In this document: positions 28,468 through 42,178 of the stretch, one piece after another
Layout of the letters: each line of letters begins with the position of its first letter
Numbering within the stretch: the stretch's first letter is position 1
DNA from: Paraburkholderia phenazinium
GTDB taxonomy: Bacteria; Pseudomonadota; Gammaproteobacteria; Burkholderiales; Burkholderiaceae
Reading direction: 5' to 3'
Assembly: GCF_900142845.1 (NCBI RefSeq)
Contig: NZ_FSRU01000001.1
Span: 1,550,001 to 1,614,000, forward strand
DNA length: 64,000 nt
Position numbers and translations under genes: made by a program
Notes under the pieces: model-generated
What the model saw: only the letters and a program-made list of their open reading frames with translations
Database searches by the model: none
What the model was told of the DNA's origin: nothing

Positions 28468-29453
28468 GACTAATTGAATGGACGTGTTGGTTCCCCGCGG
28501 GATGCGGCACGAACAACGTTAAAACAGGCGCGGCACGATTCCGCAGCCGTGCGCAGGGCGCAAAGCCACCAGAAGTCCAGGCGGGGGTCGTTAGCGGACC
28601 GCGCCGCGCGTTGCTATCAGGAAGACCGTTCGATTCAGCCCGTTATCCGGCGCGATCCGCAGAACATGCGCACACGGCAGGCGAAACAAGGCACGCATAA
28701 GCGCGGACGCCATCAAAGGCGCGCTCAGGCAAACAGGTGAACCGAACGGTAAGCGGGAGAGAGGCGCTACGGCAGCAGCGAAGCGACTTCGTCCGTGCGT
28801 ACGGCGATGAAAGCGCGCGCAGAGACGGAATTGTGGCGTCGGACAGAACGGCGGGACAGGATCGTGAAGACGGACAGAAAGCGGCGAAACGCAAGGCTGC
28901 CGTTGCTGCCGTCGGCGATGGTGCCTTCAGGACGAAGACATCTCGCCTGACTGCGTTCCCACCTAACCAAAGGGCCTCGGACTCTCACGATTACACTCGA
29001 CTAGCGACGTTGAAAGTATTGAACGCCTCGCTCCAGAAACGCACCGTGCGTTTAAAGAAACGTGACGCGGGATGATCGCCGGGTAGCCTCGCGAATCGGG
29101 ATTACCCGCTTCGCTGCGCCGCAAAACACTGTGTTCAGCGTCTGTGACGTAGGCATGACGATCGCCTGTGAACCAGCATATACGAGCCAATATTGCCGTC
29201 AAATCATTTTTATAAAAGATTTATCAGGGCTTACCCGAGGCAATAGGCCTAAACCCGGGGGTTGGGTATGCTCGTTGCGTAAGTCAGTATTTCGAAATGC
29301 TTGCAGGGTTTTCCCCAGCAGCGGCGGCAATAAAGTGATTAGAATATTCAACACTCGCGCCGGTCGTGCATGACCCATGTGTGCCCAATGCGTGACCTGT
29401 GTCCGATTTCTGCCTGTTTCCTAAACCGGTTCATCCACTCTGAGAGTGCAGCG
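28468..29453. promoter_or_regulatory. Divergent control region between puuD and puuR
   Basis: This spacer of nearly 1 kb holds no convincing gene; the short open frames on both strands lack ribosome sites and family features. It must contain the promoters of both halves of the polyamine module. Visible elements are AT-rich DNA around 29190-29225, the 12-base repeat aacccgggggtt near 29254-29265, and a 16-base near-perfect palindrome around ATTTCGAAAT (29286-29301, one mismatch), the best candidate for a PuuR-type operator. Confidence 0.5.
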
Positions 29454-30005
29454 ATGTCCATCGAAGTAGCGACCCGCTTGCAGTACATCCGTAAGAAGAA
29501 TGGCCTGTCTCAGCGCGAGCTGGCCAAGCGGGCGGGGGTCACCAACGGCACCATTTCGTTGATCGAACAAAATCGCGTGAGCCCCTCGGTCGGTTCGTTG
29601 AAGAAGCTGCTCGAATCCATTCCGATGAGCCTCGCCGAGTTCTTTACGTTCGAAGTCGAAGCGGACTGCTCCGTGGTGTCGCGCCGCGTCGACATGCCGA
29701 ATCTCGGCAACGAGTCGATTGAGTTCTATCTCGCCGGTGCGGGCGTAAAAGACCGCAACATGGGCATCCTGCGCGAGGTCTATCAGCCGCTCGCGGACAC
29801 GGGGCCGGAAATGCTGGTGCATACAGGACACGAGGGCGGCGTGATCGTCAGCGGCCAGATCGAATTGACCGTGGACGGCGCCACATGGCTGCTCGACCCC
29901 GGCGACAGCTACTACTTCGAAAGCCGCCGGCCGCATCGTTTTCGCAATCCCAGCGCGGAACACGTCTGCGAAATCGTCTCGGCGAATTCACCGCCGAGCT
30001 TCTAG
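29454..30005 (+). CDS. puuR: PuuR-type repressor (HTH plus cupin)
   Basis: The 183-residue protein has an XRE helix-turn-helix (residues 7-62; LSQRELAKRAGVTNGTISLI) and a C-terminal cupin (about 110-180; GPEMLVHTGHEGGVIVSGQI, PHRFRNPSA). E. coli PuuR has the same architecture and represses puu genes until putrescine binds. The start at 29454 was chosen because upstream codons in frame do not match the family. It heads the plus-strand half, 91 bases before puuC. Confidence 0.92.
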   Translation: MSIEVATRLQYIRKKNGLSQRELAKRAGVTNGTISLIEQNRVSPSVGSLKKLLESIPMSLAEFFTFEVEADCSVVSRRVDMPNLGNESIEFYLAGAGVKDRNMGILREVYQPLADTGPEMLVHTGHEGGVIVSGQIELTVDGATWLLDPGDSYYFESRRPHRFRNPSAEHVCEIVSANSPPSF

Positions 30006-30096
30006 ACATTCCGCGTCAACGTCGTTGCGACGCGCGTGATGGCTGCAAGGGCAACCCTCACGTTGAACGTCGAACGCATAACATTGAGGCATCCTG

Positions 30097-31584
30097 ATGG
30101 AAAAGACTCTCGCTTACTGGCAAGACAAGGCCGCAACGCTTTCAATCGAAGGCCGCGCGTTTATCGACGGCGAATATCGCCATGCAGCCAGCGGGCGCAC
30201 CTTCGATTGCCTGAGCCCGATCGACGGCAAGCTGCTCGTCAAGGTGGCCGATAGCGCCAGCGAAGACGTGAACGCAGCCGTGGCCGCGGCGCGGCGCGCC
30301 TTCGACTCGGGTGCCTGGTCCGGCCTGAATCCGCGCAAACGCAAAGCAATCCTGCTGCGTTGGGCCGGTCTATTGCGCGAGCATCTCGACGAGCTGTCGC
30401 TGCTCGAGACGCTCGATGCGGGCAAGCCGATCGGCGATACGACCTCGGTGGATGTGCCGGGCGCGGCGTATTGCGTCGAGTGGTTTGCCGAAGCGATCGA
30501 CAAGATCGGCGGCGAAGTGGCCCCGGCCGACCATCATCTGGTCGGGCTCGTCACGCGTGAGCCGATCGGTGTGGTGGCCGCGGTGGTGCCGTGGAATTTC
30601 CCGATCCTGATGGCGTCGTGGAAGTTCGGCCCGGCTCTCGCCGCGGGCAACAGCGTCGTGCTGAAGCCCTCCGAAAAATCGCCGCTGACGGCCATTCGTA
30701 TTGCGCAGCTCGCGCATGAGGCCGGCATTCCGGCGGGCGTGTTCAACGTCGTGCCGGGTGCGGGCGAGCCGGGCAAACTGCTGGCCTTGCATCCCGACGT
30801 CGATTGCCTGGCCTTCACCGGTTCGACCAACGTCGGCAAGCTGATCATGCAGTACGCCGGCCAATCGAATCTGAAGCGCGTGTGGCTCGAGCTCGGCGGC
30901 AAGTCGCCGAACATCGTGATGCCCGACTGTGCCGATCTCGACCGCGCCGCCAATGCGGCAGCGGGCGCGATCTTCTACAACATGGGCGAGATGTGCACGG
31001 CGGGTTCGCGCCTGCTCGTGCATCGCGACATCAAGGACGTGTTCCTCGACAAGCTGATCGCAGCGGCGCGCAGTTATACGCCGGGCAATCCGCTGGATCC
31101 GAAGACGTCGATGGGGGCGATCGTCGACCAGGTGCAACTGGACCGCGTGTTGAGCTATATCGAGGCCGGACGGGCGGAATCGAAGCTGCTGCTCGGCGGC
31201 GGCCGCGTGAAGCAGGAAAGCGGCGGCTACTATATCGAGCCGACCATCTTCGACACCAAGGCGGATGCTAAAATCGCCCGTGAAGAAATCTTCGGACCGG
31301 TGCTGTCGGTGATCACGTTCGATACGGCCGAAGAAGCCATCAGGATTGCCAACAATAGCGAATACGGTCTTGCCGCTGCGGTCTGGACCTCCAACCTCAC
31401 CACCGCGCATGAAATGGCGCGCAGCCTGCGGGCCGGCACGGTGTGGGTCAACTGCTACGACGAAGGGGGCGATATGAACTTCCCGTTCGGCGGCTACAAA
31501 CAATCGGGCAACGGCCGTGACAAGTCGTTGCACGCACTGGAGAAGTACACCGAGCTGAAGTCTACGCTGGTGCGGCTGCGCTAA
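30097..31584 (+). CDS. puuC: Gamma-glutamyl-gamma-aminobutyraldehyde dehydrogenase
   Basis: The 495-residue NAD(P)-dependent aldehyde dehydrogenase has catalytic Cys300 (GEMCTAGSR), general base Glu265 (LELGGKSPN) and the cofactor block VVPWNFPILMASWK. It oxidises gamma-glutamyl-aminobutyraldehyde to gamma-glutamyl-GABA, following PuuB. The opening MEKTLAYWQDKAATLSIEGR matches PuuC. It can probably also use 4-aminobutanal from SpuC. Confidence 0.94.
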   Translation: MEKTLAYWQDKAATLSIEGRAFIDGEYRHAASGRTFDCLSPIDGKLLVKVADSASEDVNAAVAAARRAFDSGAWSGLNPRKRKAILLRWAGLLREHLDELSLLETLDAGKPIGDTTSVDVPGAAYCVEWFAEAIDKIGGEVAPADHHLVGLVTREPIGVVAAVVPWNFPILMASWKFGPALAAGNSVVLKPSEKSPLTAIRIAQLAHEAGIPAGVFNVVPGAGEPGKLLALHPDVDCLAFTGSTNVGKLIMQYAGQSNLKRVWLELGGKSPNIVMPDCADLDRAANAAAGAIFYNMGEMCTAGSRLLVHRDIKDVFLDKLIAAARSYTPGNPLDPKTSMGAIVDQVQLDRVLSYIEAGRAESKLLLGGGRVKQESGGYYIEPTIFDTKADAKIAREEIFGPVLSVITFDTAEEAIRIANNSEYGLAAAVWTSNLTTAHEMARSLRAGTVWVNCYDEGGDMNFPFGGYKQSGNGRDKSLHALEKYTELKSTLVRLR

Positions 31585-31716
31585 AGGATTCGCAAGCCAG
31601 CGCGGCGGTGCGTCGTTCCGGCGCCGTCGCGTTCCCAATGAATCCGAAGCCGGGTGATACGCGCACAACCTCAGGAAAACCGCGTGTGTTGCCGGCATGT
31701 TTTATCAGGTCATCCC

Positions 31717-32679
31717 ATGACTGAACTCCTCTATGGCGACGGTGCAATCCGCCGTCCGTCCCTCTACGGGTCCTCGATCGAAAATACCTATGCGGGCGTG
31801 CTGTCGTTCATGCGACGCAAGTACACGCGCGAACTGGCCGGGGCCGATGTGGTCGTTTCCGGCGTGCCGCTCGATCTGGCCACCACCTTCCGCTCCGGCG
31901 CGCGCCTCGGTCCCGCTGCGGTGCGGGCGGCGAGTGTGCAGTTGTCCGAGTTGCATCCCTATCCGTGGGGCTTCAATCCGTTCGACGATCTCGCCGTGAC
32001 GGATTACGGCGACTGCTGGTTCGACGCGCACAACCCGATGACCGTCAAGCCGGCCATCGTCGAGCATGCCCGCACGATTCTGCGTTCGGATGCGAAGATG
32101 CTGACGTTGGGTGGCGATCACTACATCACCTATCCGTTGCTGATTGCGCATGCGGAGAAGTACGGCAAGCCCTTGTCGCTGATCCATTTCGACGCCCACT
32201 GCGATACCTGGGCCGACGATAGTCCGGACAGCCTGAATCACGGCTCGATGTTCTACAAGGCGGTGAAGGACGGCCTGATCGATCCGAAGACGTCGGTGCA
32301 GATCGGCATCCGCACGTGGAACGACGACTTCATGGGCATCAACATCCTCGATGCGGCGTGGGTGCATGAGCATGGCACGCGCGCTGCGGTGGAGCGGATC
32401 ATGTCGATTGTCGGCGAGCGTCCCACGTATCTGACCTTCGATATCGACTGTCTCGATCCGGCTTTTGCACCGGGCACGGGCACGCCGGTAGCCGGCGGCT
32501 TGTCGTCGGCACAGGGGCTCGCCATCGTGCGGGGCCTGGGCGGCGTGAACCTGATTGGCGCGGACGTCGTCGAAGTGGCGCCCGCCTACGACCAGAGCGA
32601 GATCACCGCCATTGCCGCCGCGCACATTGCCTGCGACGTGCTGTGCCTGTGGCGGCAACGCAAGGTAGCGGGGCGTTGA
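31717..32679 (+). CDS. speB: Agmatinase
   Basis: The 320-residue ureohydrolase shows all three manganese-binding blocks: GGDHYITYP, HFDAHCDTW and FDIDCLDPAFAPGTGTP, then DVVEVAPAYDQSEIT. It hydrolyses agmatine to putrescine and urea, feeding the Puu route. The similarity to E. coli SpeB is high in the metal blocks, though guanidinobutyrase is a possible alternative. The start at 31717 has an AGGT site. It follows puuC by 132 bases and is probably co-transcribed. Confidence 0.9.
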   Translation: MTELLYGDGAIRRPSLYGSSIENTYAGVLSFMRRKYTRELAGADVVVSGVPLDLATTFRSGARLGPAAVRAASVQLSELHPYPWGFNPFDDLAVTDYGDCWFDAHNPMTVKPAIVEHARTILRSDAKMLTLGGDHYITYPLLIAHAEKYGKPLSLIHFDAHCDTWADDSPDSLNHGSMFYKAVKDGLIDPKTSVQIGIRTWNDDFMGINILDAAWVHEHGTRAAVERIMSIVGERPTYLTFDIDCLDPAFAPGTGTPVAGGLSSAQGLAIVRGLGGVNLIGADVVEVAPAYDQSEITAIAAAHIACDVLCLWRQRKVAGR

Positions 32680-32705
32680 CGTTGTTGTAAGCAGTGCGGC
32701 CGGCG

Positions 32706-33989
32706 TCAGCTCGCGGAGGACGCTTCGCGAGGTTGGCGCCGGCCTTCCAGTAGACCGAGTGTGTATATGGCAAGCGCGCCGCTGGCGAGCGCGAGTTGCC
32801 ACATCAGCATGTCGCTGCCTAGTGCCTTCATGGCGAAGCCGGCGAGCAACGGACCGGCAATCGAGCTGACCGTGAAGGTCAGCGAAACCAGCCGCATGTT
32901 GCGGGTCAAGGCGGCTTTATCGCCGCTTGCGGCGGCGAACATCCCTAGCGTGATAAAGGCGCTATTCATTCCACCCAGCAAGACTGCGCTCGCCGCCAGC
33001 AGCCCCGACGCAGGCGCGGCCAGGGCGAACGACACGACTGCGAGCGCGCTTGCTGCTGCACAGACGACGACCGCTGCGGCGAGACTGACGCGCTGGGCGA
33101 ACCAGCCAACCGGAAACTGCAACGCCATCCCGCCGATACCGAAGCAGGTGAGCAGGGTAGCGGTTTGTGTCGCGCTGAGTCCGCGTCCGTCGGCGAAGAG
33201 CGGAAAGAGGCCGTAGAGCGCGCCGTCGCCGAGACCACCAAATGCCACGACCACCATGCCGAGACAGACGAGCGGGCCGATTGCCGTTGTTTGGGACCTG
33301 GCCTTGGCAGGTTCGGTTGCGACATGTGCGGGTAAGTGAGGTTGCAGTGCTAGCTCGCGGGTCTGCGGCGTTGTTGGCGCAGCGAGCGGATTCGCCGGAC
33401 GTCCGCTTGAGCGCGCAGCGTTGGGACGGCGCGACTCGGCAGCGGTCAACCATAGCGGAATCGCCGCGGCAAACGTGAACAACGCCCCCGCACCAAAGGT
33501 GATGCGGCCATCGACGGCGCACCACGTTGCAAGAGCCGGCCCGATTACACCGGCCGCTGCGATCAGCGCTTCATGAATGCCGACCACCCGGCCACTGGCC
33601 CGCTCGGGCACTAGTCTGTACAGCCAGGTTTCATTGGCGATCCAGCGCAGGCCGATGCCGAGTCCGGTCAGCATGCCGGGAATTAGCCACCACGGCCACG
33701 CCAGCCAGCCTATCGTTGCGAATGCAACGATGCTCGCCGCAAGCCCCAGCGTAACGGTTGCCTTTGCACCGATTCGCTCCGCCAGATGCGGCGCCGCCAG
33801 CAGCCCCGCGACCATGCCGGCCCACTGGGCAGCGGAAAACAGCCCCGCGCGCGGTGCGTCGAGGCCGTGATGCGCCAGCCAGACCGGCAACACCATAAAA
33901 CCGATCCCGAACTGACCGATCTGCGCCAGCGCCGACACGGCGGTCAGCGCGCCGATCGCACGCCAGCGCACCGGCGTCGCGGGATTCAT
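32706..33989 (-). CDS. MFS transporter (YcaD/sugar-efflux-like, 12 TM)
   Basis: The 427-residue protein has about 12 membrane segments in two halves joined by a polar linker (about 195-245, rich in Ala, Pro and Arg). It has the family blocks GIGLRWIANETWLYRLVPE and GALYGLFPLFADGRGLS, resembling the YcaD/UMF-type transporters of unknown substrate. Start at 33989 overlaps the MarR stop by four bases, so regulator and transporter are coupled and the substrate is probably the MarR ligand. Export is more likely than import. Confidence 0.85.
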   Translation of the reverse strand: MNPATPVRWRAIGALTAVSALAQIGQFGIGFMVLPVWLAHHGLDAPRAGLFSAAQWAGMVAGLLAAPHLAERIGAKATVTLGLAASIVAFATIGWLAWPWWLIPGMLTGLGIGLRWIANETWLYRLVPERASGRVVGIHEALIAAAGVIGPALATWCAVDGRITFGAGALFTFAAAIPLWLTAAESRRPNAARSSGRPANPLAAPTTPQTRELALQPHLPAHVATEPAKARSQTTAIGPLVCLGMVVVAFGGLGDGALYGLFPLFADGRGLSATQTATLLTCFGIGGMALQFPVGWFAQRVSLAAAVVVCAAASALAVVSFALAAPASGLLAASAVLLGGMNSAFITLGMFAAASGDKAALTRNMRLVSLTFTVSSIAGPLLAGFAMKALGSDMLMWQLALASGALAIYTLGLLEGRRQPREASSAS

Positions 33990-34519
33990 GAGCCGCTCCG
34001 TTCGGGCATCGGCAAGCCCTGTTCGCGGCATTCGACCGGGCAACCTGCTGCGAGGCACGGACCGTCGTCGCATAGACGACACAACTGCATGGCATGCGCA
34101 GGGTCGCGCGTTTCATGCCAGAGAATCTTGATCAACAGGTCTTCGAACACGACCCGTTCGTCGTCATCGAGCCGGCTTACCACGCGCTGCAGCATGCGTT
34201 CGCGCGCTGTCTGCATGCGCTTCGCTTCGCGCCGGCCAGCAGTGGTCAGCGCCAGCGCCACCGCGCGTTTGTCGGCGCCTGGTTTCTTTTCGATCAGGCC
34301 GGCCTCGACCAGACCCGCCACCGCGCGGACGGCCGCCGGATGCGACAGATCGACCGCATCGCGCAGCACTTCAATGGAGGAATCCGGATACTGGCCCACC
34401 GCATTGAGGATGGCGCGCGCCGTGGGACCGGCGAGCGCGGCCACGGTGGTCTGCGCATTCATCTCGTCCGTCACCAGCAGGGCGAGCACCCCAAGCAGAT
34501 TTTCTGTGCGCTGCGTCAT
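33986..34519 (-). CDS. MarR-family regulator with C-terminal Cys cluster
   Basis: The 177-residue winged-helix protein has the recognition region IEVLRDAVDLSHPAAVRAVAGL (about 49-70) and wing EKKPGADKRAVAL. The C-terminus carries five cysteines at 147, 150, 155, 160 and 164 (CRLCDDGPC, GCPVEC), a CxxCx4Cx4Cx3C pattern suited to binding zinc or an iron-sulfur cluster or to redox switching. It is cotranscribed with the MFS gene and lies directly behind a long palindrome (34527-34572), so self-repression is likely. Confidence 0.85.
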   Translation of the reverse strand: MTQRTENLLGVLALLVTDEMNAQTTVAALAGPTARAILNAVGQYPDSSIEVLRDAVDLSHPAAVRAVAGLVEAGLIEKKPGADKRAVALALTTAGRREAKRMQTARERMLQRVVSRLDDDERVVFEDLLIKILWHETRDPAHAMQLCRLCDDGPCLAAGCPVECREQGLPMPERSGS

Positions 34520-34526
34520 GGCAATA

Positions 34527-34572
34527 CCTCAATGTGTGCGGTCTGCATATATGCATGATGCACACATTGAGG
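34527..34572. promoter_or_regulatory. 46-bp nested palindromic operator upstream of marR
   Basis: Two perfect 13-base arms, cctcaatgtgtgc (34527-34539) and gcacacattgagg (34560-34572), flank a central perfect 12-base palindrome tgcatatatgca (34544-34555). All three share the same centre, 34549.5. It begins seven bases upstream of the marR start. This is a likely MarR binding site overlapping the promoter. Confidence 0.8.
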
Positions 34573-34622
34573 AGGGAGCGCAAGTTTACTTTTGCGGTGG
34601 CGAGTCAGCCTGAAATCGCCGC

Positions 34623-35855
34623 TTAGGCCTGCTGCGTCCTCGTTGATGCGATCACATCGGCCACGCCCGTAGCGGTCGCAGCGGACAGCGTCCAGCCAAG
34701 ATGCCCGTGTCCGGTGTTATAGAACACGCCGGGCAGGCGGCCTTTGCCGACCTTTGGCAACATGCTGGGCAGCATCGGACGCAAACCGGCCCATGGAATG
34801 ACGCGCGACGTATTCACCTGCGGGAAGTAGCGACGGGTCCATTCGGTGAGCGGAGCAATGCGTTCGGCGCGGATATCGCGATTGAAGCCGTTGATTTCGG
34901 CTGTGCCGGCCACGCGGAAGCGGTCGGCGCCGAGACGGCTCGTGACGATCTTCGCGCTGTCGTCGAGCAGGCTGACCCAGGGCGCGCCTTGCTGGCTCGC
35001 GGCGTCGTCGAGGCACACGGTGATCGAATAGCCTTTGACCGGGTAGATGTTGACCCGGTCGCCGAGCATCGACGCGAATGCGCGGCTCTTCACGCCGGCA
35101 CACACGACGATCTGCGCAAACGTCTGCTGAAACGGCTCGCCCGCCTGCTTCGCGGCGACGCTGAAGGCGCCGGCGGAATCGCGCGTGATCGACGCAATCT
35201 CCGTGTCGTAGCGGAATTCGACGCCATGACGCTCGCACGCTTGCGCGAGGCCGCGGGTGAACTTGTGGATGTCGCCGGTCGAATCTGAGGGCGTGAAGAA
35301 GCCGCCGTGGAAGGCGCCGTCGAGCGTCGGTTCAATGCGGCGAATGTCGGCCACGTTCACCGCGTTGCGCTCGAGGCCGCCTTCGTTGAGCAGCGCATTC
35401 ACCTTCGCTGCTGCATCGAACTCCTTGCGGGTCTTGTAGACGTGCAGAATGCCGCGCTTTTCGAGGTCGAAATCGATCTGCTCGCGCGCCGCAATCGAAA
35501 ACAGATGCTCACGCGCGGCGATCGCCAGCCGCACGGTTTCGATGGTGTTGGCACGGTAATGCGGAATCTGCCGCAGGAATTCGCCCATCCACGAGTACTT
35601 GTGCCAGCTCGGCAGCGGATTGAGCAACAGCGGGGCGTCGCGCGTCAGCATCCAGCGCAGGCCTTTGACGACCGTGGCGGTGCTGTTCCACACCTCGGCG
35701 TTGCTGACCGATAGCTGGCCGCCGTTGGCGAATGAGGTTTCCATCGCGGCGTAGCGGTGGCGTTCGAACACGGTTACGTTGAAGCCGCGTTGCGCGAGGG
35801 CGTAAGCGGTCGTGACGCCGGTAATGCCGGCGCCAATGATGGCGATGCGTGACAT
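34623..35855 (-). CDS. dadA: D-amino acid dehydrogenase / glycine-oxidase-type flavoenzyme
   Basis: The 410-residue FAD protein has IIGAGITGVTTAYALAQRG at the N-terminus, the DadA block ETSFANGGQLSVSNAEVW, and the C-terminal FAD loop YNTGHGHLGWTLSAATA. DadA enzymes oxidise D-amino acids to keto acids at the membrane. The tandem glycine riboswitch upstream suggests that glycine, or a D-amino acid linked with glycine metabolism, is the relevant substrate; a glycine oxidase role is possible. The start at 35855 is set by the flavin motif. No alr/dadX partner is adjacent. Confidence 0.88.
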   Translation of the reverse strand: MSRIAIIGAGITGVTTAYALAQRGFNVTVFERHRYAAMETSFANGGQLSVSNAEVWNSTATVVKGLRWMLTRDAPLLLNPLPSWHKYSWMGEFLRQIPHYRANTIETVRLAIAAREHLFSIAAREQIDFDLEKRGILHVYKTRKEFDAAAKVNALLNEGGLERNAVNVADIRRIEPTLDGAFHGGFFTPSDSTGDIHKFTRGLAQACERHGVEFRYDTEIASITRDSAGAFSVAAKQAGEPFQQTFAQIVVCAGVKSRAFASMLGDRVNIYPVKGYSITVCLDDAASQQGAPWVSLLDDSAKIVTSRLGADRFRVAGTAEINGFNRDIRAERIAPLTEWTRRYFPQVNTSRVIPWAGLRPMLPSMLPKVGKGRLPGVFYNTGHGHLGWTLSAATATGVADVIASTRTQQA

Positions 35856-35907
35856 GTCATGGTCCAGAGTGAGTGAGCAGGGCCGTTGCCGGCTTCCATG
35901 CCCCATC

Positions 35908-36097
35908 TGTCCATGTACCTGAGAGTTTCTTTCCGCGCGCATCCCGTTGCCGGGCGGGCGGAAATCCCCTTCGGTGGGCGCGTTAAGCGCCGCTCTCCAG
36001 ATGTTCCCGCTGGGCGGTCCTTGTGCCTGAGAGTTTCCGGGGCGGTTGCTCCGTCGGCGCCGTCACCGCATTTCTGCGTGACAGTCTCTCCCGCGAC
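35908..36097 (-). promoter_or_regulatory. Tandem glycine riboswitch
   Basis: Read on the minus strand, two glycine aptamers follow each other. Aptamer 1 (about 36092-36023) opens ggagagac, has ccgacggagcaa in the core, and closes aaactctcaggcac. Aptamer 2 (about 35998-35912) opens ggagagcgg, has ccgaaggggattt, and closes aaactctcaggtac. These are the invariant elements of the cooperative two-aptamer class. The 3' end lies about 55 bases before the dadA start. No clear terminator hairpin was seen in that gap, so control may act on translation. Confidence 0.92.
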
Positions 36098-36271
36098 AGC
36101 GTGTAGAACGGCGTAACGGTAGCCGTTCGCAAATAATCCGGCAAGCGTTTTTTTGCGGTTGCGGTTTTCTGTCCGAGCGGGGCGGGTGGTTCGTATATTT
36201 GCGCCGGGTGCATCAATCGTATAGCCTTGGTCAGGTTCGCCAGCCTTGATCCAACCCAACTATCCTGCACC

Positions 36272-37174
36272 GTGAAGGACATCCTCGCCCTCAAGCTCTA
36301 CACCCGCGTTGCGCGTCTCGGCAGTTTCTCGGCTGCGGCGCGTGAGTTCGGGCTGTCGCAATCGCAGGTGTCGCGCATCGTCGCCGAGCTGGAAGGCGAC
36401 CTGGGCGCGCGTCTGCTCACGCGTACCACGCGGGCGGTCGTGCTGACCGACGCGGGCGCCGAGTTCCTGTCGCGTCTGGACCCGATCCTCATGGCGCTCG
36501 AGGACGCCGAGCAGAGCGTGCGCGAAGGCAGCGAGTTGCGCGGCATGTTGCGCATGAGCATGCCCAGCAGTGTCGCAATCCGCGAAGTCATTCCACGGCT
36601 CGCGCCGTTTCTCCAACGTCATCCGGAGCTGCGTCTGCAGATGTTGCTCGGCGACCGCCCGCAGGATCTCGTCAAGGACGCGGTGGATGTCGCCATCCGG
36701 CTCGGGCGTCTGGTGGATTCGAGCGCGACGGCCACGCTGATCACGCAGATTGCGCGGGTGATCGTCGCCTCGCCCGATTACCTCGAGCGCCATGGTGTGC
36801 CGGTGACGCCCGATCAACTGACGCAGCACCGCATCGTGGGTGGACCTGCGTCCGTGGTCCCGACGGGCTGGAAGTTCGCACGCGCAGGCGAGGAGGTGGC
36901 GCTCGACCTCGACGCGCATTTCTCGACCAACGAGAACGAGGGCGCCGTCGCTGCCGCGGCTGCCGGCATCGGCATTGCTTCGACCAGCGAATGGGCTTGC
37001 CGCCGCGAACTGGCCGATGGCTCGCTGGTCCGGCTGCTGGTCGACTGGAAGACGGCCGACATCCCGGTGCATGCGTACTTTCCGATGGGCCGCGCAACCC
37101 GCGCCGCCGGGCGCGCGGTCGTCGAACATCTCATGGCCGATTTCAGGCGCGAACAGCACGCCGCTGTTTTGTGA
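36272..37174 (+). CDS. LysR-family regulator
   Basis: The 300-residue regulator has the N-terminal winged helix (FSAAAREFGLSQSQVSRIVA, about 19-38) and a LysR substrate-binding domain from about 90. It starts at the GTG at 36272, which gives the usual distance to the helix-turn-helix; there is no clear Shine-Dalgarno site. It is divergent from dadA, with the riboswitch leader between. The targets could be the SnoaL and dehydrogenase genes downstream or dadA itself. Confidence 0.87.
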   Translation: MKDILALKLYTRVARLGSFSAAAREFGLSQSQVSRIVAELEGDLGARLLTRTTRAVVLTDAGAEFLSRLDPILMALEDAEQSVREGSELRGMLRMSMPSSVAIREVIPRLAPFLQRHPELRLQMLLGDRPQDLVKDAVDVAIRLGRLVDSSATATLITQIARVIVASPDYLERHGVPVTPDQLTQHRIVGGPASVVPTGWKFARAGEEVALDLDAHFSTNENEGAVAAAAAGIGIASTSEWACRRELADGSLVRLLVDWKTADIPVHAYFPMGRATRAAGRAVVEHLMADFRREQHAAVL

Positions 37175-37412
37175 ACCTCACGATTCCTGCGCCTTAGTGC
37201 CGGCTTGTCGCGGCGGCCTCCGGTCGCCTGGCGTATGACGTATGGGCCACCCGCCGCGTCGCCATCTATGCATCCCATACATAAGACATAGCAGAAACCG
37301 ATGGCTACCGCCGGCGGCGGCGCGCGCTTATCTTCTCCATCATCCGCTTAGCCAATACCTGACTCACATGGGGCGGCGGCGATTCGATTCATTCACGTTC
37401 ATCGAGACTGAC

Positions 37413-37814
37413 ATGAGCAAAACGACACCGGAGCAAAACAAGGCCCTCGTCCTGGAGGCATTCGATACGCTGTTCAACCAGCGCGACTATGAGGCGGCTG
37501 AACGCTTCTGGTCGGACCGCTACATTCAGCACAGTGCGCATATCGCGCCGGGACGCGAGGGTCTGTTTGCGCTGATCCGCACGCTGCCCGACACGCTGCG
37601 CTACGAGAATCAGTTGATCGTGGCCGAAGGCGACTACGTGATCGCGCACGGCCGTTTCTCCGGCAGCGGCAGACCGGCCGCGTGGATTGCTGCGGACGTC
37701 GTCCGCTTTGAGGACGGCAAGCTCGCCGAACACTGGGACGTGCTGCAAGACGAAGTCACTGCGGCGCAATCGGTCAGCGGCCTGCCGATGTTCGGCGACC
37801 GATTCCCCGGTTGA
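37413..37814 (+). CDS. SnoaL-like / NTF2-fold protein
   Basis: The 133-residue protein has the SnoaL-type polyketide cyclase-like pattern: FDTLFNQRDYEAAERFWSD, then YIQHSAHIAPGREGL, and a C-terminal ADVVRFEDGKLAEHWDVLQD. Members of this small barrel family isomerise or hydrolyse small molecules, or have no known function. It is 60 bases ahead of a short-chain dehydrogenase in the same direction and may work with it. The start at 37413 is the first Met that fits the fold. Confidence 0.85.
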   Translation: MSKTTPEQNKALVLEAFDTLFNQRDYEAAERFWSDRYIQHSAHIAPGREGLFALIRTLPDTLRYENQLIVAEGDYVIAHGRFSGSGRPAAWIAADVVRFEDGKLAEHWDVLQDEVTAAQSVSGLPMFGDRFPG

Positions 37815-37874
37815 GCGCTGAAGTCACTATTGCGGCAGTCTCAACTTATCTGCGATATCCTTAAGGAGTCCATC

Positions 37875-38630
37875 ATGAAACTCAGCGGCAACACGATCTT
37901 CATTACGGGCGGCGGTTCAGGCATTGGCCGTGGGCTGGCCGAGGCGCTGCATCGGCGCGGCAACAAGGTGATTATCGGCGGACGGCGGCGCAGCCATCTC
38001 GACGAGGTGGTGGCCGCGAACCCCGGCATGGCGGCAGTCGAGCTGGACATCACCGATGCGGCGGACATCGAGCGGGTGGCGGCGCAACTGATCAAGGCGT
38101 ATCCCGCCCTCAACGTGCTGATCAACAACGCGGGTGTGATGCAAACGGATGCGGCGGCCGGCCGCATCGACGATGCGCTGATGGTCTCCACCATCACGAC
38201 CAACCTGATGGGGCCGATCCGCATGACCTCCGCGCTGATCGACCATCTCAAGACGAAGAACGATGCCGTGGTCGCCTATACCAGTTCGGTGCTGGCGTTC
38301 GTGCCGCTAGCGGTGACGGCGGTGTATTCGTCGACCAAGGCGGCACTGCATTCGTATGTCATGTCGCAACGCTTCATGCTGCGCGATACCACGGTACGTG
38401 TGCTCGAAATCGCGCCGCCGTGGGTGCGCACCGATCTGATGAACAGCCGCGAGGCCGAACAGGCCATGCCGCTGGATGCGTTTATCGACGAAACGATTGC
38501 CGCTCTCGGCACCGACGCCAATGAGGTGCTGGTCGAGAACGCCAGGTTGTTCCGCGGTAACCCCGGGCCGGGCGAGCATGATCTTGTGAACGGCTTTAAC
38601 GCGCAGATGGTTGAAGTGTTCTCGGGGTGA
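37875..38630 (+). CDS. Short-chain dehydrogenase (DltE-like)
   Basis: The 251-residue SDR has TGGGSGIGRGLAEAL at the cofactor site, NNAG at about 88-91, and the catalytic Tyr-Lys in VYSSTKAAL. It begins at the ATG at 37875 behind a good AAGGAG site. The closest recognisable group is the DltE-like SDRs, which have unknown substrates. It probably forms a two-gene unit with the SnoaL-like protein. Confidence 0.9.
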   Translation: MKLSGNTIFITGGGSGIGRGLAEALHRRGNKVIIGGRRRSHLDEVVAANPGMAAVELDITDAADIERVAAQLIKAYPALNVLINNAGVMQTDAAAGRIDDALMVSTITTNLMGPIRMTSALIDHLKTKNDAVVAYTSSVLAFVPLAVTAVYSSTKAALHSYVMSQRFMLRDTTVRVLEIAPPWVRTDLMNSREAEQAMPLDAFIDETIAALGTDANEVLVENARLFRGNPGPGEHDLVNGFNAQMVEVFSG

Positions 38631-38665
38631 GGCGGGGTCTTTATGAAGCGCCATGCGTGCTCGGG

Positions 38666-39160
38666 CTACTTAACCTCAAACACGCTATAGACCGGGCCAT
38701 CCGCAAACCGGTGGCCCGTTCCGATCGCAACCACCCGGTTCAGCCATTCATACTTGCCGGCAGGTGCTTCAAAGAGCGGATTGATGCGGAAGTAGTAGCT
38801 GGCCGGATCGACTTCCTCGCCTTTTTCCAGCCGCTGGATCACGTCGGCCGCGCCGTGGCGGATGCCGCGATAGGCCATCGTGATGTGAGCACCGTCGTCG
38901 GTTTCAAGGATCAGGCGCACGTCGAGCGTGGTGCTGCCGTCGCTGCGCACGGTCTGCCAGTCGCTGCCGCCGTCCAGCACCTTGCCGGATAGACGCTCGC
39001 CGGCGAAGGTGCCGGACGGCACGATACCGATGCGTCGAAACTGTCCCGGCGTCGCGCCGACCATCACGATCGGTTTGACGTCGAGGCGCATCACGAACAG
39101 CGGTCGTGTTTGCACACTCTGGAGCGGTGCGGGGAGCTCGTGGAAAGCGGGCGTGGACAT
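38666..39160 (-). CDS. DUF3237 family protein
   Basis: The 164-residue protein fits DUF3237: RPLFVMRLDVKPIVMVGATP at the N-terminus, GDWQTVRSDG-like block (GGSDWQTVRSDGS), and the conserved Tyr-rich YYFRINPLFEAPAGKYEWLN. It is predicted to be cytosolic and beta-rich. The function is unknown. It converges with the SDR gene at 37875. The start at 39160 is the first Met in line with the family. Confidence 0.85.
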   Translation of the reverse strand: MSTPAFHELPAPLQSVQTRPLFVMRLDVKPIVMVGATPGQFRRIGIVPSGTFAGERLSGKVLDGGSDWQTVRSDGSTTLDVRLILETDDGAHITMAYRGIRHGAADVIQRLEKGEEVDPASYYFRINPLFEAPAGKYEWLNRVVAIGTGHRFADGPVYSVFEVK

Positions 39161-39442
39161 CGTAATCACCTTGAGCGTTGAGCGCATGACGTTGCGTGTC
39201 ATGTGGTTGAGTTTACCGGTTTTGATCGATCGTCGGGGCCGCTACTTCAGCGGCGAGAACTCCGTGGGACGCATTATTCTCTCCTGAAGCCACGGCACGC
39301 CTTGAGTCGGTGCTGCCGGTGATCGCTGCCGTAGAACGCATCAGCAATGACACAGAAGGCTCAATAAAAATAAACCGGATAACTAAACAAATACCGATTT
39401 ATCCAGGCCGAACGAAACCTGCATGACAGACACTGCCGATCG
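39161..39442. other. Spacer with the DUF3237 promoter
   Basis: No gene is seen. The stretch 39360-39420 is markedly A/T-rich and is the likely site of promoters or of a transcript end for the neighbouring minus-strand genes. Confidence 0.35.
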
Positions 39443-40192
39443 TTACGCAGCGGTTCTTCCGCCATTGACCCTGAGAATTTCGCCGGTCATGAAGCTGGCC
39501 TTTTCCGACGCCACGAACACGATCGCCTCAGCGATTTCCTCCGGCGTTCCCGCACGCTTGAGCGGGACCGTCGCGAGCATGCCGGCCTTACGTTCCGCGC
39601 CGGCGGTGAGCCGGTTCAGCATCGCGGTTTCAACAGGACCGGGCGCGACGGCGTTGACCCGCACGCCGAATGCCGCGGCTTCGAGCGCCGCCGATTTGGT
39701 GAGTCCCTCTACGGCATGCTTGCTGGCGACATACAGCGAGAGGCCGGCCGCGCCTCGCAGGCCCATGGTCGACGAGATATTGACGATGCTGCCGCTGCCT
39801 TGCGCCGACATGACGCGCAGTTCGTGTTTCATCGCGAGCAGCGTGCCGAGCACGTTGGTGTCGAACACAGCCGTGTAGCGCTCGGGTGTCTGATCCAGCA
39901 CCGGGATGGTTTCGCCCTCGGTACCTGCCGCGTTCACGGCGATGTCCAACCGGCCGAAGCGTGCGACGACGGCGTCCACCAGCTTGCTCACGTCGTCTTC
40001 GAAGCGCACGTCCGATTGCACGAACTCGGCTTGTGAGCCGGTGGAACGCAGTTCCTCGGCGAGTTGCCGGCCTTCTTCCACGCGCCGGCCTGAGACGACG
40101 ACACGGGCCTTGTCACGCGCAAAAGCAAAAGCGGTGGCGCGACCGATGCCTGTGAGCGCGCCGGTGATGAGTACAACGGGTTGGGTGGTCAT
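39443..40192 (-). CDS. Short-chain dehydrogenase (classical SDR)
   Basis: The 249-residue enzyme has TGALTGIGRATAFAFA at the NAD(P) site, an NAAG variant of the structural motif, and catalytic Ser/Tyr/Lys (NISSTMG, LYVASKHAV). It ends with the SDR C-terminal block FMTGEILRVNGGRTAA. The Arg in SGRRVEEG after strand two favours NADPH. It lies 55 bases after the DUF427 gene and is probably co-transcribed. Confidence 0.9.
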   Translation of the reverse strand: MTTQPVVLITGALTGIGRATAFAFARDKARVVVSGRRVEEGRQLAEELRSTGSQAEFVQSDVRFEDDVSKLVDAVVARFGRLDIAVNAAGTEGETIPVLDQTPERYTAVFDTNVLGTLLAMKHELRVMSAQGSGSIVNISSTMGLRGAAGLSLYVASKHAVEGLTKSAALEAAAFGVRVNAVAPGPVETAMLNRLTAGAERKAGMLATVPLKRAGTPEEIAEAIVFVASEKASFMTGEILRVNGGRTAA

Positions 40193-40247
40193 GGATAGTC
40201 CTTGATCGGGTGGCGCGAGCCGTCCTTGCGGCGGCTCGCTGCCGAGC

Positions 40248-40643
40248 TCAGTCCTGCACGTCGATGGCGTCGACGCGGTCGGGGTAGAAAGCGACGTGAG
40301 CCTTGATCTCTTCGACCGCCGCATACGGATTCTCATACGTCCAAACCGCATTCACCGAGCGCGCGCCGCCCGCTGGAATCGAGTAGTACGAGCAGTCGCC
40401 CTTGTAGGGGCAATACGTGGCATGCTCGGTGCGTTCCAGCAGGGTCATGTCCACGTCCTTTCGCGGGATGTACAGCACAGCGGGGTAGGCGGCCTCGCGC
40501 AGCGTCAGCGCCTCGCGCGTATCGGCGATCACCTTGCCGGCAAGCGTGACCACGACGCGCGCCGGGTTCGGCTCGATGGTGATCGGATGATCGGGGCCCG
40601 GTACCTTGACGGTCTTGCCTGACGGGTTGAGGTTGCTTGACAT
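40248..40643 (-). CDS. DUF427 family protein
   Basis: The 131-residue protein shows the DUF427 pattern: HPITIEPNPARVVVTLAGKV, YIPRKDVDM, the conserved TYCPYKGDCSYYSI with two Cys, and WTYENPYAAVEEIKAHVAFY. It forms a small beta barrel; function is unknown, though the conserved Cys and Tyr suggest ligand or metal binding. The start is at 40643. Confidence 0.88.
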   Translation of the reverse strand: MSSNLNPSGKTVKVPGPDHPITIEPNPARVVVTLAGKVIADTREALTLREAAYPAVLYIPRKDVDMTLLERTEHATYCPYKGDCSYYSIPAGGARSVNAVWTYENPYAAVEEIKAHVAFYPDRVDAIDVQD

Positions 40644-40712
40644 GGAAACACTCCTTGAGTTGATCGCCGTGCGCAAGAGCCAGGCGAGACCGGTGCTGCG
40701 GGCCGCTGCCGT

Positions 40713-40886
40713 TCAGGCGGCAGACGGCAGGAAGTCGAAATATGAACGTTCGTCGCCGCGTTGCAGGATGTCCTCGGCGCCTTCGCGGTCGAATCCACCT
40801 GCTGCCATGATGGGCCCTTTGAAGAATTTGCGCAGAAACGATGATGCGACCGGCGACTGACCCCGGCCCAGGCCGTTCAGGTTCAT
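40713..40886 (-). pseudogene. Internal fragment of an Old Yellow Enzyme-type flavin oxidoreductase
   Basis: A 57-codon frame reads GPIMAAGGFDREGAEDILQR, the phosphate-binding segment near the C-terminus of OYE/NADH:flavin oxidoreductases (usually AGGYDRExAExxLxxGxAD). The expected AFGRxFIANPDLP continuation is missing and the frame instead ends FDFLPSAA. The N-terminal barrel is absent. I infer a deletion remnant between two dehydrogenase genes. Confidence 0.55.
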
Positions 40887-40957
40887 TTCGACATCCTGAT
40901 TGATGGAAGCTGTCTCAGTTCTAAAAGCCAGCCTCTGTCAGCTCTTCACCGCGGCAA

Positions 40958-41704
40958 TCAAAGCTTCGAACCGCCGTCGACGTGCAGCGTGTCGCCCGTC
41001 ACCCAGCGTGCGTCGTCGGAGGCGAGGAAAGCGACGGCGCCGGCGATGTCGTCGGGTTGTGCGATGCGCTTGAGCGCCTGCATGCCCAACGTCATATCGC
41101 GGCCAGCATCGGTCTTGGTGAAGCTCGACATGTCGGTGGCGACTACGCCGGGTGCGACGGCGTTGACGCGAATGCCGCGTTCGCCGAGTGCAGCGGCAAA
41201 GTGCTTGACCAGCGTATCGACGGCGCCTTTCGTCGCTGCGTAAGCCGACAGCGCGCCGACTGCGGCATGCGCCGCCAGCGAGGACAGCAGCACAACGCTG
41301 CTGCCTTCGCCCAGCACCGGCAGCAACTGCTGTACGAGGAAATAGGGAGCCCGCACATTCACGGCGAACAGGTTGTCGAAGTCTTCGACGGTGGTGTCTT
41401 CGATGCTCGCGGCCTTCGCGATGCCGGCGTTGGCGACAAGCACATCCAGACGCGCGCCGACGATCTCGCGCACTTGCCTGGCAAGCGTCTGCGGACCGTC
41501 AGCCGCGCGCAGATCGGCGCCGACTTTCTGGGCCTTGCCGCCTGCCGCGCGGATTTCGGCGACCACCGCATCCGCTTCCTTTTCTCCACTGCTGTAGTGC
41601 ACCAGTACTTCGGCGCCCTGTTTGGCGAGGGCTAGGGCGCTGGCGCGGCCAATGCCGCGGGAAGCGCCGGTGACGAGGGCGGTCTTGCCGTTCAGATTAG
41701 TCAT
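40958..41704 (-). CDS. Short-chain dehydrogenase (classical SDR)
   Basis: The 248-residue SDR has [22 protein letters not shown] at about 88-90 (VLVANAGIA), and catalytic SAYAATKGAV. The terminus WVTGDTLHVDGGSKL is typical. The ATG at 41704 has an AGGAG site. Its close paralog at 43413-43754 has lost the middle. The operator-like element at 41847-41893 lies about 145 bases upstream and is shared with the LysR gene at 43994. Confidence 0.92.
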   Translation of the reverse strand: MTNLNGKTALVTGASRGIGRASALALAKQGAEVLVHYSSGEKEADAVVAEIRAAGGKAQKVGADLRAADGPQTLARQVREIVGARLDVLVANAGIAKAASIEDTTVEDFDNLFAVNVRAPYFLVQQLLPVLGEGSSVVLLSSLAAHAAVGALSAYAATKGAVDTLVKHFAAALGERGIRVNAVAPGVVATDMSSFTKTDAGRDMTLGMQALKRIAQPDDIAGAVAFLASDDARWVTGDTLHVDGGSKL

Positions 41705-42178
41705 GATCAAGCTCCTGTGAGGTTGAAAGCTGGTGTGCCTGCGGAGTGGGGATGCACGCCGCGTGACCTGCGAATCGGAGCAGCGGTGCGTGGCGTCATA
41801 TCCGTTTGCGTCGCTGTCTTGGAAGCTAATTTAGTGGCGCGCGCGGCAAAGGAAAAAGACTTTGTGGGCTGGTGGCCATGCTTCGGGAGCATGCCTCAGT
41901 GGTGTCGCGCGCAATTGTTCGCGCTGTGCAGCCCAATAGGGCGTGATACGGCGGGATGTCGGAAGAATGAAAGCATGCGGGCGCATGCATGGCTGGGGGT
42001 GTGGTGCCGCGCGACGGCAGCGGAGGAGACTAATGGACCATCTACAAGGAGGCGGCGGAGGTGTCCGTTAAAGTGCGGCGGCGGGTCGGGATAAGCGCCA
42101 CGGAGGGCCGGCGCGCGGCGGCTAGCGGGCCACCGCCCACCGTCCACCGCTCGCACCGAATCGCAGCTATACGCTCTT
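41705..42178. other. Intergenic region carrying a copied control element
   Basis: There is no credible gene over these 474 bases. It carries the composite operator described separately at 41847-41893. A 12-codon frame at 42033-42071 with strong ribosome sites is too short and Gly-rich to call. Confidence 0.4.
41847..41893. promoter_or_regulatory. Composite operator, copy A
   Basis: An inverted repeat caaagg-N6-actttg (41847-41864) is followed 12 bases later by a second one, catgct-N5-agcatg (41877-41893). Copy B at 43929-43975 has the same two elements at the same 12-base distance. It precedes the SDR gene at 40958-41704 and is inferred to be a binding site for the LysR regulator encoded at 43994. 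Confidence 0.6.

Follow-up and report, generated by a model that had tools for sequence, protein, structure and literature searches.

A tandem glycine riboswitch precedes a DadA-like gene of Paraburkholderia phenazinium whose FAD-dependent product is predicted to oxidize glycine

The riboswitch and the gene that it precedes

The 64-kb stretch of Paraburkholderia phenazinium DNA analyzed here (the window) carries on its minus strand a tandem glycine riboswitch, followed by a gene for an FAD-dependent protein of the DAO family. The presence of a real tandem riboswitch at this position is confirmed. Covariance-model searches with the Rfam model RF00504 find both aptamers on the minus strand, and bear out a preliminary description of this DNA that had placed two complete glycine aptamers in the leader of a dadA-like gene. 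Aptamer 1 occupies 36005-36104 (54.9 bits, E = 4.6e-10 in a search of the whole genome, where it lies at C1:1586005-1586104), and aptamer 2 occupies 35897-36010 (57.9 bits, E = 2.3e-9 in the window and E = 7.2e-11 in the whole genome, at C1:1585897-1586010). Both are far above the gathering score of 32 bits, ruling out a chance or partial riboswitch. The window search keeps only the best match of each clan, and since the aptamers overlap by six bases aptamer 1 is absent from it. A plus-strand match to sroD (35774-35839) was discarded, with 18.4 bits against a cut-off of 50.

The gene runs on the minus strand from its ATG at 35855, 41 bases past aptamer 2, to 34623, and encodes 410 amino acids. 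A longer alternative frame from 35942 begins within aptamer 2; the start at 35855 is the one kept among relatives. The glycine cleavage genes lie elsewhere. A tblastn search of the window with the GcvT and GcvP proteins of the same genome gave no match, in agreement with the earlier statement that no gcv gene is near, and together with the family models described below this rejects the idea that a gcv or transporter gene had been mistaken for dadA. The genome (8 526 942 bases in three contigs) contains three tandem glycine riboswitches. One precedes the gcvT-gcvH-gcvP genes on another contig (C2:3261616-3261929), where GcvT and GcvP were confirmed by Pfam and GcvH was recognized by eye. The third (C1:2155098-2155305) has a Cupriavidus-like leader and is followed by the 5′ portion of a second dadA-like gene, which has ATC as its start codon and is interrupted by an IS66-family element identified by Pfam.

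To which family does the encoded protein belong? It scores 732.1 bits against NCBIfam NF009074 (PRK12409; cut-off 494) and 244.3 bits against PF01266. It falls below the cut-off of the DadA model PRK00711 (352.4 versus 383 bits), and also below that of the ThiO model TIGR02352 (136.8 versus 250.8 bits). NF009074 is a well separated family. In tblastn searches of a spread sample (60 of 334 plasmid records) identity drops from 57.7 to 36.4% with nothing between, and the closest non-member in our genome sets is 41.7% identical. NCBIfam names the family a D-amino acid dehydrogenase. Indeed the protein belongs to the same superfamily as Escherichia coli DadA (PRK00711) and has the GLRPM and TGHG.LGW motifs in common with it; yet the two are only 33% identical, and the E. 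coli enzyme is partnered by an alanine racemase and has no riboswitch. When solved structures were searched by sequence the best matches were glycine oxidases, at low similarity. Those of the ThiO type (TIGR02352; PDB 7cyx) would share the reaction that we propose for the window protein, whereas the latter lacks the TGHYRNG-like stretch of 7cyx as well as scoring under the model cut-off.

Association of the riboswitch with the NF009074 family

How general is the arrangement found in the window? Among 59 relatives the NF009074 gene scores over the cut-off in 22, all of the same genus, and 21 of these have an RF00504 match directly upstream on the same strand, genes and aptamers being paired by their coordinates. 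Two aptamers are over threshold in 20 of the 21, and a single one in G008. Each of 13 genomes of the genus that do not have the gene contains two aptamer matches, and the 21 contain between three and six. In a second set, comprising 60 genomes from the family, 14 have the gene over the cut-off, and in 13 of them it is preceded by two aptamers; a further genome, G156, is not counted, as its aptamers precede a gene fragment cut by the contig end. When the sets are combined (the P. phenazinium genome, G000, being in both), 33 of the 35 genomes with the gene have an aptamer directly upstream, the exceptions being G010 and G167.

The association extends well beyond these genomes. All 20 annotated records of NF009074 members that were fetched (15 of the top 40, four members of the spread list and one record of a phage collection) have an aptamer directly upstream of the gene. 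They are from Caballeronia, Burkholderia vietnamiensis, two Paraburkholderia, Pseudorhizobium, Agrobacterium, Halomonas, Aminobacter, Ideonella, three Cupriavidus, Comamonas, two Rhizobium leguminosarum, Shinella, Bosea, Sinorhizobium, Massilia and an Acinetobacter contig deposited as phage. Of 59 plasmid records sharing 60-80% identity, part were fetched. None of eight controls at 36% identity or less, E. coli dadA included, has a glycine riboswitch. Since 33 of 35 genomes and all 20 fetched records carry the upstream aptamer, the link is no local accident, and an accident of lineage is rejected because the association spans three classes. The contig deposited as Acinetobacter phage has fumC, argF and ispF beside the riboswitch and gene, and looks like bacterial chromosome.

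A tree of 97 protein sequences places all 63 NF009074 members in one clade with support of 100/100. Directly upstream of the gene, 61 of these 63 have the riboswitch; three pairs are identical (L126/L203, L125/L197 and L056/L156), so that the count for distinct proteins is 58 of 60. They come from alpha-, beta- and gamma-proteobacteria. None of the 24 members on the side of E. coli DadA has one. The protein of G029, a genome of the same genus as the window, is identical to its counterpart in P. sprentiae. The riboswitch labels were taken from a count of upstream motifs, with L180, which has the motif and no Rfam match, counted as negative; L063 was dropped from the tree as a duplicate of L086. 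Comparison of the sequences revealed 34 positions that are fixed differently from the 23 DadA-side members in 62 or 63 of the 63 NF009074 proteins, L179 being left out. These include N52 and H385, which are tyrosine and threonine, respectively, in DadA.

The tree has a third clade, of 10 members from other Burkholderiales families, and three of these (G037, G046 and G051) have a glycine riboswitch. Their proteins are over the PRK00711 cut-off (485.1-498.7 bits) and their leaders have RF00504 matches, indicating that a second clade of DadA-like enzymes is also under a glycine riboswitch. The order in which the three clades branch is unsure, as the tree flags long branches. In G037 (L086 3254-3500) the riboswitch that precedes the DadA-type gene is followed by what appears by eye to be a terminator-like hairpin and U run, unlike the leader in the window.

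The same switch is present in nearly every relative examined, across three classes, which makes it most likely that the enzyme degrades glycine and bears the wrong name. We think it somewhat more probable than otherwise that NF009074 is a separate and widespread family of riboswitch-controlled FAD glycine dehydrogenases under a wrong name, and that DadA-like enzymes have come under a glycine riboswitch more than once; the latter is suggested by its presence in the separate clade of G037, G046 and G051.

Expression platform and mode of control

No intrinsic terminator was found between 34400 and 36400, as had been said earlier of the interval between aptamer 2 and the start, and a terminator-based switch in the window is rejected. 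In the minimum free energy fold predicted for the ligand-free leader, the 3′ core and P1 strand of aptamer 2 (35899-35916) pair with the leader just before the gene. Nucleotides 35915-35911 are paired with 35858-35862, and 35909-35899 with 35865-35879 in a bulged helix. The complementary segment, at 35858-35879, is a putative expression platform on the evidence of this fold and of 31 of the 34 leaders analyzed below. It includes a weak SD-like GGA (35865-35863), of which only G35865 is paired. The pairing excludes the P1 helix of aptamer 2. From the sequence and the RF00504 alignment, the 5′ strand of P1 (CAUCUG, 35998-36003) pairs within the aptamer with 35904-35909, for which it would compete as the rival partner. 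All these elements are on the minus strand.

Leaders of 34 members, in three diverged groups (26 in A, five in B and three in C), were compared; they are related, and so do not count as independent. L058 and L137, which have no riboswitch, and L086-L088 were left out. The segment linking the 3′ end of aptamer 2 with the start is more stable than its shuffles, with a mean z of –2.61 over the 34 and –1.54 in the window; the complete window leader gains little over its shuffles (z = –1.38). When the 3′ strand of aptamer 2 is masked, the ribosome-binding site (RBS) becomes more accessible in 33 of 34 leaders, the mean rise being 0.345 compared with 0.115 for shuffled RBS regions. The native rise is above the shuffled mean in 31 leaders and above 95% of shuffles in 10, including that of the window, and there is no platform signal in L044, L129 and L134. 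The energy of the duplex between strand and RBS is below 95% of shuffles in 22 of 34 leaders; in the window it is no better than 13.5% of shuffles. When RBS regions were swapped between groups, native pairs were not separated from foreign ones, A with B1 (–20.97) and B1 with A (–25.49) scoring as well as A with A (–19.00).

Other conserved pairing is more local. The consensus fold of all 34 leaders contains only a local stem at the end of the aptamer, and that of the 26 group A leaders consists mainly of a small hairpin (GGGCA...UGCUC, 35875-35903, minus strand) between aptamer 2 and the start, and not of the long platform. This hairpin is also present in the forced aptamer-2 fold of the window, and pair counts in group A reveal a stem partly varying in step. 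By inspection, the outermost helix in group A is broken in L049, L050, L056 and L057, and changes in step in L059. In the window, forcing the aptamer-2 fold frees G35865 and opens the RBS region no further than from 0.30 to 0.46; pairing of the AUG increases, its mean unpaired probability falling from 0.79 to 0.19. The forced fold is 8.3 kcal/mol weaker than the free fold, as computed in the absence of ligand and tertiary contacts. Single-sequence modelling of the window's own leader thus gives mixed support for the platform.

The masking result in 31 of 34 leaders suggests a translational ON switch like that of gcvT in Neisseria. According to PMC13104608, experiments showed that the N. gonorrhoeae gcvT riboswitch acts as a translational ON switch: the RBS is sequestered with the aid of aptamer 2, and glycine relieves this. 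The two systems would have in common the pair of RF00504 aptamers, a catabolic target and the involvement of aptamer 2 in RBS sequestration; in Neisseria the target is the cleavage system, whereas here it is an FAD oxidoreductase whose switching is predicted from folding. On this model, the 3′ strand of aptamer 2 would pair with the leader at the ribosome-binding region when glycine is absent, hindering translation, and when glycine is bound the strand would be taken into the aptamer and its P1 stem so that the enzyme is made. Taking glycine to be the substrate, we regard both the translational mode and the ON direction as likely.

The most durable alternative retains glycine as the substrate and has a control that is Rho-dependent, co-transcriptional or OFF in direction. 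It would account for the closing of the AUG in the forced fold of the window, the weakness of the GGA and the lack of significance in the window's own duplex test, and it could draw on the terminator-like hairpin seen in G037, a genome of another family. Yet no terminator was found in the window, strands complementary to the RBS region recur in leaders of three diverged groups, and ON logic suits a catabolic target, as it does for gcv. We consider this alternative unlikely, and prefer the translational ON switch.

The probable substrate and its metabolic setting

The genes around NF009074 members give some indication of function. In the window, the nearest are genes for MarR-type and MFS proteins downstream and a divergent LysR regulator, and there is no alanine racemase among the 13 proteins scanned (29370-41710). 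In Aminobacter a malate synthase G gene lies directly downstream; in Paraburkholderia phenoliruptrix the neighbours are an HbpS-like gene, glycine C-acetyltransferase (kbl) and threonine dehydrogenase (tdh); and in Comamonas there is a PF03458 glycine transporter among the neighbours. RidA is nearby in three records (L155, L166 and L174) and HbpS-like genes in five of 20. Most neighbours in the fetched records have no clear link to glycine. The P. phenazinium genome encodes both malate synthase G (1192.4 bits) and glyoxylate carboligase (1193.3 bits), each over its cut-off.

Several other regulatory RNA elements were observed in the relatives. G015 has an extra glycine aptamer preceding a PF03458 glycine transporter (L091 1719-2692). 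In G002 the aptamer is retained and the transporter is reduced to its last 49 residues right behind it (L090 1470-1737), so that the switch looks orphaned. In P. phenoliruptrix a SAM-I/IV riboswitch match of 60 bits lies just upstream of the glycine riboswitch on the opposite strand (L169 3378-3483, minus strand).

A gene that may correspond to this one has appeared in metabolic engineering. The original description of DadA6 is reportedly that of Claassens 2020. In PMC11879842, dadA6 of an engineered Cupriavidus necator is called a glycine oxidase, and its deletion as a possible glycine sink gave no further gain in growth or yield; PMC12421819 describes DadA6 as a D-amino acid dehydrogenase orthologous to ThiO. 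We located the gene through its check primers. The reverse primer has no exact match in 60 genomes of the genus of C. lacunae; allowing up to two mismatches it matches in 27, and there are ten sites with one mismatch. In C. lacunae the site is inside a gene for a TonB receptor and, from a position ∼1.2 kb upstream, points toward the riboswitch and NF009074 gene. Eight of the other nine one-mismatch sites were fetched, and in seven both aptamers and the gene follow 1174-1237 bases on; L204 has such a site without the gene. In 10 of 15 loci from the search with up to two mismatches the gene is seen at the edge of the retrieved sequence. No match to the forward primer was found close to the NF009074 gene in the Cupriavidus loci; this primer matches on four contigs, including one of C. 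lacunae, where it falls in a PAAR-like gene with no dadA among the listed ORFs. Synteny would thus place dadA6 at the NF009074 locus, with the reservation that this comes from one primer and from Cupriavidus relatives that carry the riboswitch and gene rather than from C. necator H16 itself. The available text of PMC11879842 makes no mention of riboswitch control. An RF01695 match (C4 antisense RNA) lies a few hundred bases downstream of the gene in five (L197, L199, L201, L202 and L203) of the seven Cupriavidus-group loci that hold it.

Could the enzyme be a true D-amino acid dehydrogenase, acting on D-alanine, D-serine or a broad range, with glycine merely signalling a general surplus of amino acids? 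The NCBIfam name would then be correct, the motifs in common with E. coli DadA would be expected, and there is an alanine racemase near the gene of B. vietnamiensis, as at DadA loci; moreover three proteins over the PRK00711 cut-off also have a glycine riboswitch. But the window protein is under that cut-off, its family forms a separate riboswitch-bearing clade as opposed to the riboswitch-free E. coli DadA side, and the fixed differences, such as N52 for tyrosine and H385 for threonine, set the two apart. Furthermore, a racemase adjoins the gene in five of eight DadA-side controls compared with one of the 20 records of NF009074 members, among which three lack a gene table. A D-amino acid substrate is consequently rather improbable, and the suspicion voiced at the outset that the name DadA is wrong gains from the family models, the tree, some of the neighbours and the synteny with Cupriavidus dadA6. 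Least probable, to the point of being very doubtful, is that the substrate is sarcosine, dimethylglycine or another compound that yields glycine, with glycine sensed as a product or indirect signal: the sequence matches to sarcosine and dimethylglycine oxidases are weak and rank below those to glycine oxidases, in single cases the neighbours consume glyoxylate or produce glycine, dadA6 has been described as a glycine oxidase, and an ON switch induced by the product would seem less economical.

We infer that glycine itself is very likely the substrate of the NF009074 enzyme. The locus would be a one-gene glycine-catabolic unit in which the tandem riboswitch of the 5′ leader senses glycine, and the FAD enzyme would oxidize it to iminoacetate or glyoxylate in a branch beside the glycine cleavage system. 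Either malate synthase G or glyoxylate carboligase could then use the glyoxylate. The most likely prediction is an ON switch that controls a glycine dehydrogenase or oxidase. The complete statement, that glycine switches on the translation of an FAD enzyme oxidizing glycine to glyoxylate, joins substrate and mode, and the window leader backs the platform less than does the family as a whole; for these reasons we hold it to be probable on balance and less secure than the substrate taken singly.

The sources surveyed, in the parts available, list as targets of glycine riboswitches gcv genes, sodium:alanine symporters, glycine transporters, serine genes, malate synthase and phosphoserine aminotransferase, and according to Torgerson et al., as cited in PMC13104608, 81% of tandem glycine riboswitches are upstream of glycine catabolism genes. 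Our literature search found no paper that pairs a glycine riboswitch with a D-amino acid dehydrogenase; it covered main texts, and regulon tables such as the supplement of Sun et al. 2013 may list the pairing. Within the literature surveyed, the riboswitch belongs to a known class, and its target family here had not been named.

If glycine is indeed the substrate, the curated name of NF009074 should be corrected and a glycine-oxidizing flavoenzyme added to the glycine riboswitch regulon. Alpha-, beta- and gamma-proteobacteria would then have a second catabolic branch, independent of lipoyl protein and tetrahydrofolate, and this would explain how bacteria of soil and plants can consume or detoxify glycine by a route other than the cleavage system. 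The reductive glycine pathway engineered in Cupriavidus is concerned too: should dadA6 be the NF009074 gene, high glycine would itself induce a glycine oxidase that drains the pathway.

Elsewhere in the window, genes for a PuuR-like regulator, a PuuC-like aldehyde dehydrogenase and agmatinase lie in a row at 29370-32679, and are likely to form a polyamine catabolic cluster.
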